Below, piece by piece: positions 11,986 to 62,277 of a stretch of DNA of 64,000 bases (positions within the stretch are counted from its first letter, which is position 1; every line of letters starts with the position of its first letter). The notes under the pieces are model-generated. The model made no database searches, had not been told where the DNA came from, and saw only the letters and a list, made by a program, of their open reading frames with translations. The stretch covers positions 248,001 through 312,000 of the forward strand of contig NZ_JAJFAV010000004.1 in NCBI RefSeq assembly GCF_020711235.1, read 5' to 3'. The DNA is from Hymenobacter sp. 15J16-1T3B (lineage in GTDB: Bacteria > Bacteroidota > Bacteroidia > Cytophagales > Hymenobacteraceae). The translations under genes and the position numbers were made by a program.

Positions 11986-12996
11986 ATGGAGCACCCAATC
12001 ATTCTGGCCATCGAGTCGTCGTGCGACGACACGGGGGCGGCCGTCATTGCCGGGGGCAATATTCTGGCCAACGTGGTGGCCTCGCAGCAGGTTCACGAGC
12101 AATTCGGCGGCGTGGTACCCGAATTGGCCTCGCGTGCCCACCAGCAGCACATCCTGCCGGTGGTGCAGGCGGCGCTGACCAAGGCCGGCATCCACAAGGA
12201 AGACCTCGACGCGGTGGCCTTCACCCAGGGGCCCGGCCTGCTCGGCTCCTTGCTGGTCGGCGGCATGTTTGCCAAGAGCTTCGCCCTGGCCCTGGGCAAG
12301 CCGCTGATTGCCGTCAACCACATGCAGGCCCACATCCTGGCGCACTTCATCGAGGAGCCGCGGCCAGCCTTTCCCATTCTGTGCCTCACGGTGAGCGGCG
12401 GCCACACCCAACTGGTCATCGTGCGCAGCCCCATGGACATGGAAATCATCGGCCAGACCCAGGACGACGCCGCCGGCGAAGCCTTCGACAAAACGGCCAA
12501 GCTGCTCGGCCTGCCGTACCCCGGCGGCCCCCGCCTCGACAAGCTGGCCCAGCAGGGCGACCCGCTGCGCTTTCCGTTCCCGGTGAACCAGATGCCCGGC
12601 TACGACTTCTCCTTTAGCGGGGTGAAAACGGCCGTGATGTACTTCCTGCGCCAGCAAACCCAGCAGAACCCGAAGTTCATCGAGGAAAACCTGGCCGACC
12701 TCTGCGCCAGCATTCAGCACACCATCCTGCAGACGCTCATCCGCCAGCTGCGCCGCGCCGCCAAGGACTACGGCCTGACCAACATTGCCATTGCCGGCGG
12801 CGTGGCCGCCAACTCCGGCCTGCGCGCCGAGCTGCAGCGCCTCGCCGACGAGCTGGGCTGGCAGGTGTTTATTCCCGCCTTTCAGTACTGCACTGACAAC
12901 GCCGGCATGATTGCCATGACCGCGCACTTTCAGTACGAGGCCGGCGACTTCGCCACCCAGCTAGCCAGCCCCGACCCGCGGCTGAAGCTGGCGTAA
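11986..12996 (+). CDS. tsaD: tRNA N6-threonylcarbamoyladenosine transferase subunit TsaD
   Basis: A 336-residue ASKHA-fold protein that transfers the threonylcarbamoyl group to A37 of ANN-decoding tRNAs, acting with TsaB, TsaE and the TsaC product. Family marks: AIESSCDDTGAA (8-19), the metal-binding HMQAH (H112 and H116), TVSGGHTQL (136-143) and CTDNAGMIA near the C-terminus, which supplies the third metal ligand. Length is standard. The ATG at 11986 begins directly with the conserved block. It is divergent from the tamB-like gene across a 198-bp gap. Confidence 0.97.
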   Translation: MEHPIILAIESSCDDTGAAVIAGGNILANVVASQQVHEQFGGVVPELASRAHQQHILPVVQAALTKAGIHKEDLDAVAFTQGPGLLGSLLVGGMFAKSFALALGKPLIAVNHMQAHILAHFIEEPRPAFPILCLTVSGGHTQLVIVRSPMDMEIIGQTQDDAAGEAFDKTAKLLGLPYPGGPRLDKLAQQGDPLRFPFPVNQMPGYDFSFSGVKTAVMYFLRQQTQQNPKFIEENLADLCASIQHTILQTLIRQLRRAAKDYGLTNIAIAGGVAANSGLRAELQRLADELGWQVFIPAFQYCTDNAGMIAMTAHFQYEAGDFATQLASPDPRLKLA

Positions 12997-13017
12997 GGGA
13001 GCTGGAGCTCGAATAAG

Positions 13018-13060
13018 AACGTCATGCTGAGCTTGCCGAAGCATCTCTACCGCTTCGTTG
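13018..13060. repeat. Family A-type arm, left (flanks the Imm50-like gene)
   Basis: 43 nt beginning AACGTCATGCTGAGCTTGCC and ending CGCTTCGTTG. It is an imperfect inverted copy of 13467-13510. It follows the tsaD stop by 22 bp. Confidence 0.8.
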
Positions 13061-13078
13061 CTTTATGAATTGCCATCA

Positions 13079-13480
13079 ATGGAACACCCTGCAATTAACT
13101 TGATCAGCAATTCAGGGCTTGTTCTTCGGCATTTTGGATACTGGCCAAGTTTACATGATGCGGTAACCGAAAGAGTTTCTTTCGAAGTAAAACCGCCAGC
13201 ATTTCGGGCATCTGCAATCTTTCTCATTGCTGCTTGCGAAACAACCGATGAGGTTGACGAAGATGGGAGTTACAACCAAGTGAAGCATTGTAACATTGAA
13301 CTTCAATTCACGGGCATACAGGAAATGAATTTTGCTCTTGATCATCAACCTGTAGTTTTTGGAATGCGCTTCGAAGGGAATGAACAGAATATCAAGTGTA
13401 TCTACTCGTCATCTGCTGGGACAGGTATTATAGTTGCAGAAGATACTCTAGTGCTGAGCTTAACTCCAACGAAGCGGTAG
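13079..13480 (+). CDS. Imm50-like / unknown accessory protein inside a palindromic element
   Basis: A 133-residue protein. I prefer the ATG at 13079 over an in-frame TTG at 13058, because the TTG lies at the edge of the left repeat arm. The N-terminal phrase FGYWPSLHDAVTERVSFE resembles Immunity protein 50 and related families ('F-x-x-WPSFHDAE'), which act as antidotes in polymorphic toxin systems or occur as orphan genes. No toxin gene is adjacent. Two 60-base lines counted inside the gene are 40-47% G+C, far below the neighbours, so recent acquisition is likely. Its stop codon lies inside the right palindrome arm. Family assignment is by motif only and uncertain; that it is a real gene is more secure. 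Confidence 0.7.
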   Translation: MEHPAINLISNSGLVLRHFGYWPSLHDAVTERVSFEVKPPAFRASAIFLIAACETTDEVDEDGSYNQVKHCNIELQFTGIQEMNFALDHQPVVFGMRFEGNEQNIKCIYSSSAGTGIIVAEDTLVLSLTPTKR

Positions 13481-13510
13481 AGATGCTCCGACTGCGCTCA
13501 GCATGACGTT
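13467..13510. repeat. Family A-type arm, right (overlaps end of the Imm50-like gene)
   Basis: 44 nt beginning CAACGAAGCGGTAGAGATGC and ending GCTCAGCATGACGTT. The outer 15 and inner 21 positions pair with the left arm at 13018-13060, with mismatches and a 1-nt length difference between. The last codons and TAG of the enclosed gene use this sequence. Confidence 0.8.
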
Positions 13511-13524
13511 CTAGATTTACAAGA

Positions 13525-13932
13525 ATGCACAACCCCTTCCGCCCCGGCGACCAGCAAACCCACCGCTACACGGTCGTGGCGGCCGACTTCGCCGCGTTTG
13601 AGGCTGGCGGCGGGCTGGTGCACCCGGTGCTGAGCACCTTCGCCCTGGCGCGCGAGATGGAGTGGGTTGGGCGCCTGTTCGTGCTGCAAATGCGCGAAGC
13701 GGGGGAGGAGGGCATCGGCACCCGGGTGGAGGTGCAGCACCACGCCCCGGCTTTCGAGGGCGAAACCGTGGAGCTGACTGCTACCTTTGCCGCCCTCGAC
13801 GGCCGCGAGCTGACCTGCACCGTAGAAGCCCGGGTGGGCGCGCGGCTGGTGGCCACCGGCCGCACCGGTCAGCGCATCGTCGACAAAGCCAAGCTCGAAG
13901 CCCGCTTTGCCGCCCTGCGCGCCGCCAGCTAA
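13525..13932 (+). CDS. Hotdog-fold thioesterase family protein (FlK-like)
   Basis: A 135-residue single hotdog domain. The segment GGGLVHPVLSTFALAREMEW resembles the fluoroacetyl-CoA thioesterase-like group, with a conserved T/S and E around the helix and GTRVEVQHHAPAF-x-GETVELTATF forming the next strands. Such proteins hydrolyse acyl-CoA thioesters; the substrate cannot be told from sequence. It starts 15 bp after the right palindrome arm and is followed by smpB 83 bp downstream on the same strand. Confidence 0.82.
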   Translation: MHNPFRPGDQQTHRYTVVAADFAAFEAGGGLVHPVLSTFALAREMEWVGRLFVLQMREAGEEGIGTRVEVQHHAPAFEGETVELTATFAALDGRELTCTVEARVGARLVATGRTGQRIVDKAKLEARFAALRAAS

Positions 13933-14513: not shown

Positions 14514-14702
14514 GTAGTCATTGCGAGCGAAGCGCGGCAATCGTTCCTCTCGTGGCACCGCCGACGCAATCCTTACCAACCGAAAACAGCCCCGCCAGAA
14601 ACCAGAGTCACTTGGTTCCAGGTGGGGCCGTTTTCAGTTAATGCTTCTTGTACCGTTGTACCCCGAGAGGAAGAATTGCCGCGCTTCGCTCGCAATGACT
14701 AC
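14514..14702. repeat. Family B nested palindrome, copy B1
   Basis: Perfect 28-bp terminal inverted repeats at 14514-14541 and 14675-14702 (left arm begins GTAGTCATTGCGAGCGAAGC). The stem continues inward through TTCCTCTCG / CGAGAGGAA. An inner, partly decayed hairpin (AAAACAGCCCCGCC...GGGGCCGTTTTC) lies near 14584-14635. Placed between smpB and the C40 peptidase gene. Confidence 0.88.
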
Positions 14703-26320: not shown

Positions 26321-26333
26321 GCCTGACGCCAAA

Positions 26334-26484
26334 CGTCATGCCGAGCCCTGCCAATACATCTCGCGTGCTGGCATTGAACAATTGGAACAACACGTCATGT
26401 CGAGCGTAGCCGAGACATCTCGCGTGCTGATGCCAGGTAGTAATTACTATCCGGCGAGATGTCTCGGCTACGCTCGACATGACG
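26334..26484. repeat. Family A palindrome (one half-copy plus one complete copy)
   Basis: A half-copy (AACGTCATGCCGAGCCCTGC..., 26334-26373) is followed by a complete palindrome with perfect 31-bp arms at 26393-26423 and 26454-26484 (left arm begins CGTCATGTCGAGCGTAGCCG). The spacer contains the TGCTGATGCCAGGTAGTAATTACTATCCG-like loop. It fills the 204-bp leuA-leuC junction, so it is transcribed within the operon unless it terminates. Confidence 0.85.
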
Positions 26485-26524
26485 GTCGAATTAGTCGCAT
26501 AGCCCAATTCCCACCCCGCCTATT

Positions 26525-62147: not shown

Positions 62148-62277
62148 CAGAACGTCATTCCGAGCTTGTCGAGGAATCTCGCGTGTTTAGCCGGATAGTA
62201 AACTTCTCGTTGAACGAGAAATACGCTACCGGCCGTCAGCACGCGAGATTCCTCGACAAGCTCGGAATGACGTTCTG
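62148..62277. repeat. Family A palindrome, longest copy
   Basis: Perfect 38-bp arms at 62148-62185 and 62240-62277 (left begins CAGAACGTCATTCCGAGCTT). The 54-nt spacer contains its own TTCTCGTT / AACGAGAA hairpin. It lies 20 bp past the pyrG stop and is a plausible transcript end. The 62278-62440 stretch that follows shows nothing I recognise. Confidence 0.9.

Follow-up and report, generated by a model that had tools for sequence, protein, structure and literature searches.

A mobile insertion cassette (MIC), as the term is commonly understood, is a small gene held between inverted ends without a transposase of its own. Minimal mobile elements of Neisseria consist of different genes found at one site between conserved neighbours, and in integrons each gene cassette carries one attC site, always in the same orientation. 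In REPIN/RAYT systems, based on repetitive extragenic palindromes (REPs) of the GTAG type, inverted REP doublets occur as long hairpins and a nuclease-type gene is flanked by REPs of its own subtype. Another group, the CGTC REPs, carries the tag CGTC at the outer end and a complementary AT at the foot of the stem. Di Nocera et al. (2013, PMC3733652) describe CGTC REPs as mostly head-to-head dimers, present in Bacteroidetes, and report no tyrosine transposase gene between them.

The locus described here lies in a 64,000-nt stretch (the window; positions 248001-312000 of contig C37) of the genome of Hymenobacter sp. 15J16-1T3B (G000; 6.3 Mb, 42 contigs). Comparison with related genomes indicates that it is a single-gene cassette bounded by head-to-head, CGTC-tagged, REP-like arms. 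Like a MIC, it comprises a small gene, inverted ends and no transposase of its own; unlike a MIC in the usual sense, it has REP-like ends and appears to be exchanged at fixed sites ('docks'). Four of these docks (S1-S4) hold different genes between conserved genes in related genomes, as do the minimal mobile elements of Neisseria, but the boundary here consists of REP arms, and several sites share related cargo. Unlike an integron gene cassette, the unit is bounded by an inverted pair and not by one same-way attC. The likeness to REPIN/RAYT systems extends to the inverted doublets and to a nuclease-type gene between REPs of its own subtype, but the nuclease is of the GIY-YIG and not of the HUH/Y1 type, and the cargo genes are exchangeable. 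UPF0213 small proteins (solved relatives: PDB ID 1zg2 and 1ywl) and GIY-YIG homing endonucleases contain the same domain; the proteins considered here differ from them as a K-x-W subfamily linked to REPs.

The arms, termed family A, share with the CGTC REPs of PMC3733652 the outer tag, the AT stem foot, the head-to-head dimers and the lack of a tyrosine transposase partner. The families CGTC-1 to CGTC-4 of the same source have a stem of 8-9 bp, a loop of 4-5 nt and a CCA-like tail; in family A the stem measures 5 bp, the loop is long and the tail is CTC. Among the open-access papers listed, no link between GIY-YIG proteins and REPs or other palindromic repeats was found by title or abstract start, which is weak evidence of novelty, as most subscription papers lie outside this literature; nor were palindromic repeats of this kind in Hymenobacter found there by title. 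A Moraxella survey is the single open-access paper there to mention both GIY-YIG and repetitive extragenic palindromes, and words starting with nuclease, transposase or GIY are absent from the main text of the RepRanger paper (PMC12306157).

The cassette between tsaD and the thioesterase gene

The left arm (positions 13016..13058, + strand, 43 nt) is a CGTC-tagged REP-like unit with the tag outside and the TACCGCTTCGTT end inside; the right arm (13469..13512, - strand, 44 nt) is its inverted copy. The two pair over 17 nt complementary at 100% and 24 nt at 96%, separated by a few mismatches and a one-base difference in length. With up to three mismatches, a 20-mer from the arm core is found in the window at the two arm sites alone (chance expectation 0.00), and a 16-mer from the outer arm occurs nine times (0.65 expected).

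Between the arms lies an Imm50-like gene of 133 aa (13079..13480, + strand). Its reading frame could be opened by a TTG codon (13058-13480), although the ATG at 13079 is the likelier start, and its TAG stop codon falls within the right arm, exactly as the initial annotation had it. The same annotation regarded the gene as foreign-looking, in agreement with its G+C content of 43% (window, 64%; tsaD, 66%; thioesterase gene, 71%), and described a unit without a transposase of its own, of which the Imm50-like gene is indeed the sole cargo. The Pfam model Imm50 (PF15594) matches the window protein below the curated cut-off (E=1.6e-4; 22.2 bits vs 27.1 bits) and five cassette proteins from relatives at 31.1-61 bits, four of which are 33-60% identical to the window protein. 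Relatives of the latter occupy six places in five of the eight genus genomes searched (G000-G007, its own copy counted); none was found in the wider scan of the genome collection. Judging from the Pfam names, the gene probably serves as an orphan immunity gene that protects against interbacterial toxins.

The cassette is flanked on the left by tsaD (11986..12996, + strand, PF00814), 90-97% identical in six other genus genomes, and on the right by an FlK-type thioesterase gene (13525..13932, + strand, PF22636), 85-91% identical in six. Elsewhere in the window, further inward-facing arm-like pairs at 2452-2616, 26331-26487 and 62150-62275 are consistent with empty or nested palindromes. Downstream of smpB (14514-14702) lies a REP palindrome of another type, TTGC, with a 77% inverted self-match; REPs of the same subtype flank a GIY-YIG gene (L244) elsewhere in G000.

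Family A arms and their arrangement

The arms are by no means private to this locus: the arm pattern is found at 55 places in G000 (up to three mismatches), and the reversed control pattern at none. A 44-position profile derived from sequence only recovers 141 arms in G000, 126 in G006 and from 65 to at least 150 across the seven other genus genomes, the lists for G002 and G003 each ending at 150 scored candidates. Among the matches listed for G000, G002 and G003, 129 of 135 neighbouring arm pairs spanning less than 150 nt face inward, as do all 17 pairs at 150-400 nt; at 400-1000 nt there are eight inward pairs, one outward and none facing the same way. The usual form of family A is the dispersed empty palindrome. 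The excess of inward pairs at the longer distance is limited to the three clade genomes counted. In 118 further Hymenobacter stretches, picked by the arm pattern and including a few from the clade of the window genome, 136 inward pairs are spaced by less than 150 nt, and at 400-1000 nt there are two inward, four outward and one same-way, so that loaded elements are rare in this sample and nothing follows from orientation by itself. The two inward pairs are dock S3 of G005 and an element of H. latericoloratus with clean arms around a gene of 40% G+C.

The arm alignments show CGTC at one end and complementary AT at the first two stem positions. The core of a single arm folds weakly (-2.1 kcal/mol, 5-bp stem, z +0.85), and a rhizobial REP taken for comparison reaches -10.1 kcal/mol (z -4.74). 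Given the short stem and the weak folding, family A is best described as CGTC-REP-like and placed outside the four strict families of Di Nocera et al. Co-evolution of the two arms of one element was considered as proof of unit movement and discarded, since arms resemble each other only slightly more within elements than between them (147 of 2000 permutations). One element (L102; dock S2 of G001) does have a private substitution next to the tag in both arms, with no general likeness of this kind among the elements.

Exchange of contents at the docks

Comparison across the genus suggests that arm pairs act as fixed exchange sites, which enclose either a loop of some tens of nucleotides (empty) or a small AT-rich gene. 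Dock S1, between tsaD and the thioesterase gene, is readable in seven of the eight genomes, G006 having no thioesterase match. Arm pairs are present in four of the seven and surround different contents: the Imm50-like gene in G000, a membrane protein gene in G001, AT-rich DNA with broken or unrecognised ORFs in G002, and a second Imm50-like gene in G003, which is 33-37% identical to that of G000 (vs 97% for tsaD). In G001 and G003 the arms lie at identical base positions within nearly identical flanks, around unrelated genes. G007 has a single arm at the site, and G004 and G005 have none there. The view of the unit as a small cassette with palindrome arms as its boundaries therefore holds, and close relatives (G001, G002 and G003) carry arm pairs with other contents here rather than the same gene without arms.

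Flank pieces combined into a 2000-base query served to locate docks S2-S6; in G001, G004, G005 and G007 the position of S2 is given by the right flank alone. At S2, two arms enclose four different genes in G001, G002, G003 and G005; a gene with one clear arm is found in G000 and G006, and a stretch of 36% G+C with an ORF and a palindrome on its right in G004, while no arms are present at the site in G007. The S2 cargo is on the + strand in G000 and G005 and on the - strand in G001, G002 and G003. One candidate cargo of this dock (G006_S2_b) was rejected as the resident neighbour gene. In G003 the S2 cargo (L092) is a distant relative (about 33-36%) of this resident gene.

Four different genes between two arms also occur at S3 (G002, G003, G004 and G005); G001 has an empty palindrome with unlike arms there, and family A arms are absent from the site in G000, G006 and G007. 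The S3 site of G007 (L107) contains a 159-aa gene without CGTC arms, adjoining part of an unrelated GGAGGGG-type palindrome that may enclose cargo too. S4 is loaded in G002, G003, G006 and G007, with several partial arms, empty in G004 and represented by a remnant in G001; nothing recognisable was found at the site in G000 and G005. At S5, readable on both sides in G004, G005 and G007, the last two are loaded with Imm50-type genes, whose common part shows about 51% identity, and G004 has a remnant. S6, readable on both sides in G000, G002, G003 and G006, is loaded in G002, an empty palindrome with the same left junction in G003, nested palindromes in G000, and one arm with remnants, including a GIY-YIG piece, in G006. 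Different cargo at one dock is thus clear for S1-S4, and S5 and S6 exhibit varying states. Empty palindromes, which the initial annotation would have counted as support at the tsaD site, are present in a sister genome at each of S3, S4 and S6; at the tsaD site one is seen only in a genome of another genus (G040, L058) and with a variant arm.

Altogether 18 loaded elements were listed, with 313-724 nt and 40-51% G+C inside the arms (measured flanks, 58-71%); family A arm pairs around other small AT-rich genes, named as support by the initial annotation, are thus present. Pairs spanning 200-280 nt (L080, L081, L082, L087 and L093, as well as L083 at 212 nt) were excluded, since on sight they look like nested palindromes or repeats and hold no convincing gene. 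In L086 (388 nt) the ORF inside runs into the right arm.

Related cargo recurs at different docks. The same Imm50 gene is present at S2 of G002 and S3 of G005 (88% protein identity, 86% over DNA), the same 269-aa fusion at S2 of G006 and S5 of G007 (80% protein identity), and a 124-aa protein at S4 of G003 and S2 of G005 (79% identity); the S4 cargo of G002 corresponds to the C-terminal part of the 269-aa fusion alone (77% to G006). Pfam families among the cargo are Imm50, SUKH (SMI1_KNR4), DUF7668 and GIY-YIG, and the remaining cargo proteins tested gave no confident Pfam family. Of six cargo proteins compared with NCBIfam, five had no match and the sixth a far sub-threshold one. In three elements (L084, L239 and L241), family A arms enclose two genes, one of which encodes a GIY-YIG protein.

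GIY-YIG and Y1 genes as candidate partners of the arms

The initial annotation proposed mobilisation in trans, for example by a RAYT. The Y1 transposase model (PF01797) has no match in G000 or G006 and 13 matches across the other six genus genomes. At these 13 loci no flanking family A arms were found; two weak matches lie more than 1 kb away. A RAYT as mobiliser thus finds no backing. It was the GIY-YIG gene in the S6 cassette (L084) that drew attention to GIY-YIG rather than Y1 proteins as candidate mobilisers.

Among 39 GIY-YIG matches in the genus, 30 loci were taken and 24 analysed (19 small, five long); the remaining six (L252, L253, L257, L258, L259 and L264) have no match to family A arms. 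A gene was scored as two-sided if a REP match faced inward on each side within 300 nt, with a pattern that allows one mismatch and was framed after viewing the genus sequences. By this measure 14 of the 19 small genes are two-sided. Four with family A arms (L238, L239, L241 and L263) fail owing to a further gene or a greater distance between gene and arm, and L243, for which the script used the wrong frame, has REPs on both sides. Elsewhere in the phylum, 25 loci from the best 30 of a longer list were framed and analysed, and eight are two-sided; all eight belong to the 13 of K-x-W type, vs none of the 12 of other types (types sorted by eye). The REP matches at L268, L278 and L283 are weak. 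In total 22 of the 44 small genes pass and 22 fail, the phylum part again being drawn from the best 30. The controls gave none of 48: 13 Y1 loci, five long GIY-YIG genes and 30 thioesterase genes, the last being one orthologous gene in 30 genomes, with S1 arms upstream facing the other way at several. Over the same 44 genes, with the same restriction to the best 30 in the phylum part, inward matches occur upstream of 27 and downstream of 25, and outward ones upstream of 12 and downstream of 12, as expected from REPs occurring in dimers or clusters. Some other small GIY-YIG types (G190:C1, G293:C1, L271 and L290) are arranged in tandem or accompanied by long direct repeats, not by inverted REPs.

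A similar arrangement is present in the plasmid collection, from which 15 of 32 matching records were taken, spread over taxa (11 from Alphaproteobacteria, several of them Rhizobiaceae; some chromosome-sized). Inward CGTC REPs flank the GIY-YIG gene on both sides in eight records, on one side in two and not at all in five, and they are canonical (e.g., tag CGTC, 9-bp stem, 5-nt loop and CCA tail). Three 40-kb stretches from three records served as controls, and of their 110 other genes none is two-sided, as scored with an earlier script version that gave seven of 15 where the corrected one gave eight. On an Azospirillum lipoferum plasmid (L303, 689-982), a GIY-YIG gene flanked on each side by CGTC REPs is located between sufB and sufC.

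The GIY-YIG clade appears to follow the REP subtype. On the GIY-YIG tree, the five REP subtypes of the genus require four changes, the minimum, and none of 200 shuffles was as low; the labels were assigned by eye, and near-copies favour such clustering. Starred support is limited to two REP groups, the family A group having 55/87. The GTC-cgcg genes do not form a single clade, and this label alone needs two changes. The window genome encodes two small GIY-YIG proteins, associated with two other REP subtypes; a gene of the family A subtype was not detected in it. PF01541 matches two small GIY-YIG proteins above the cut-off (61.8 and 66.3 bits). In an alignment of 34 proteins, some of them truncated, the conserved residues of GIY-YIG nucleases (Tyr, Tyr, Arg and Glu) are seen in most rows. 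From these comparisons, the small GIY-YIG nuclease emerges as a better candidate mobiliser than a RAYT.

Proposed mechanism and alternative explanations

Arm-bounded exchange of genes at docks is well supported by the genome comparison, and on this basis we favour, with moderate confidence, a homing-like mechanism ('REP-homing') in which arm-bounded cassettes are moved among docks by a small GIY-YIG endonuclease and arm-guided repair. The endonuclease, often itself encoded between REPs of the cognate subtype, would cut REP palindromes, and the break would be repaired from another arm-bounded copy as a template, with the arms of about 44 nt providing homology. Such repair may copy or replace the interior in either orientation, as the arms are mirror images. 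The unit in the window would then represent a cargo-only form, no nuclease gene of the matching family A subtype being detected in its genome.

It is possible, although we hold it to be the less probable course, that the GIY-YIG protein acts as a selfish homing endonuclease, invading REP palindromes on its own behalf, cargo being loaded as a by-product of its cuts. For one of two such proteins compared with NCBIfam, the top match is a group I intron endonuclease model, though far below the cut-off, and at most of the 19 small genus loci the gene lies between REPs with no visible cargo. Nothing speaks directly against this explanation; the cleavage step is common to it and to REP-homing, and the two differ in what is selected.

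Somewhat more doubtful is homologous recombination alone, acting through arms or flanks on DNA acquired by transformation or otherwise, in the manner of minimal mobile elements; REPs would merely mark insertion-prone spots and GIY-YIG genes would be passengers. The genes on either side of the docks are indeed conserved (85-97% identity within the genus), a swap at one dock needs no enzyme, and among several unrelated small genes GIY-YIG could be one more. However, recombination through the outer flanks does not explain the related cargo at different docks, and it leaves unexplained the match of GIY-YIG clade to REP subtype as well as the REP-flanked GIY-YIG genes of Alphaproteobacteria, set against none of 110 neighbouring genes.

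Mobilisation of the arms in trans by a RAYT (Y1, HUH) transposase, as for GTAG REPINs, with the loaded elements as REPINs carrying cargo, is very improbable: the head-to-head arms are REPIN-like and six of the eight genus genomes have Y1_Tnp matches, but the two genomes without any contain 141 and 126 arm matches, none of the 13 Y1 loci is flanked by arms or scored as two-sided when the wider REP pattern is used, and Di Nocera et al. (2013, PMC3733652) likewise report no such gene between CGTC REPs. Independent REP insertions on both flanks of an ordinary gene are scarcely credible, since, despite the abundance of arms (141 matches in G000) and outward pairs at 400-1000 nt no rarer than inward ones in the 118 Hymenobacter stretches (4 vs 2), inward pairs prevail at that distance among the matches listed for G000, G002 and G003, the S1 arms of G003 and G001 agree to the base around unrelated genes, and the interiors of the 18 loaded elements are poorer in G+C than the measured flanks.

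Implications

The cassette idea of the initial annotation is right and broader than proposed there, and the partnership between GIY-YIG proteins and REPs is put forward as a lead. In its widest form, for which the balance of probabilities is even, each subtype of CGTC REP in Bacteroidota and Proteobacteria would co-evolve with a small GIY-YIG endonuclease as its dedicated partner; nuclease-bearing elements, cargo-only elements and empty palindromes would constitute the three layers of a new class of mobile system, through which single genes, many of them for immunity, pass among fixed docks.

REP-homing offers a testable answer to the question of how CGTC-type REPs, which have been reported in several phyla, can move although no transposase is known for them. 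A simple route is also suggested by which bacteria may exchange single genes, several of them of immunity type, with neither integrase nor transposon. Should the GIY-YIG link prove true, many genes annotated as 'GIY-YIG nuclease family protein' would gain a role, and single genes that are mobile could be sought by way of REP pairs.
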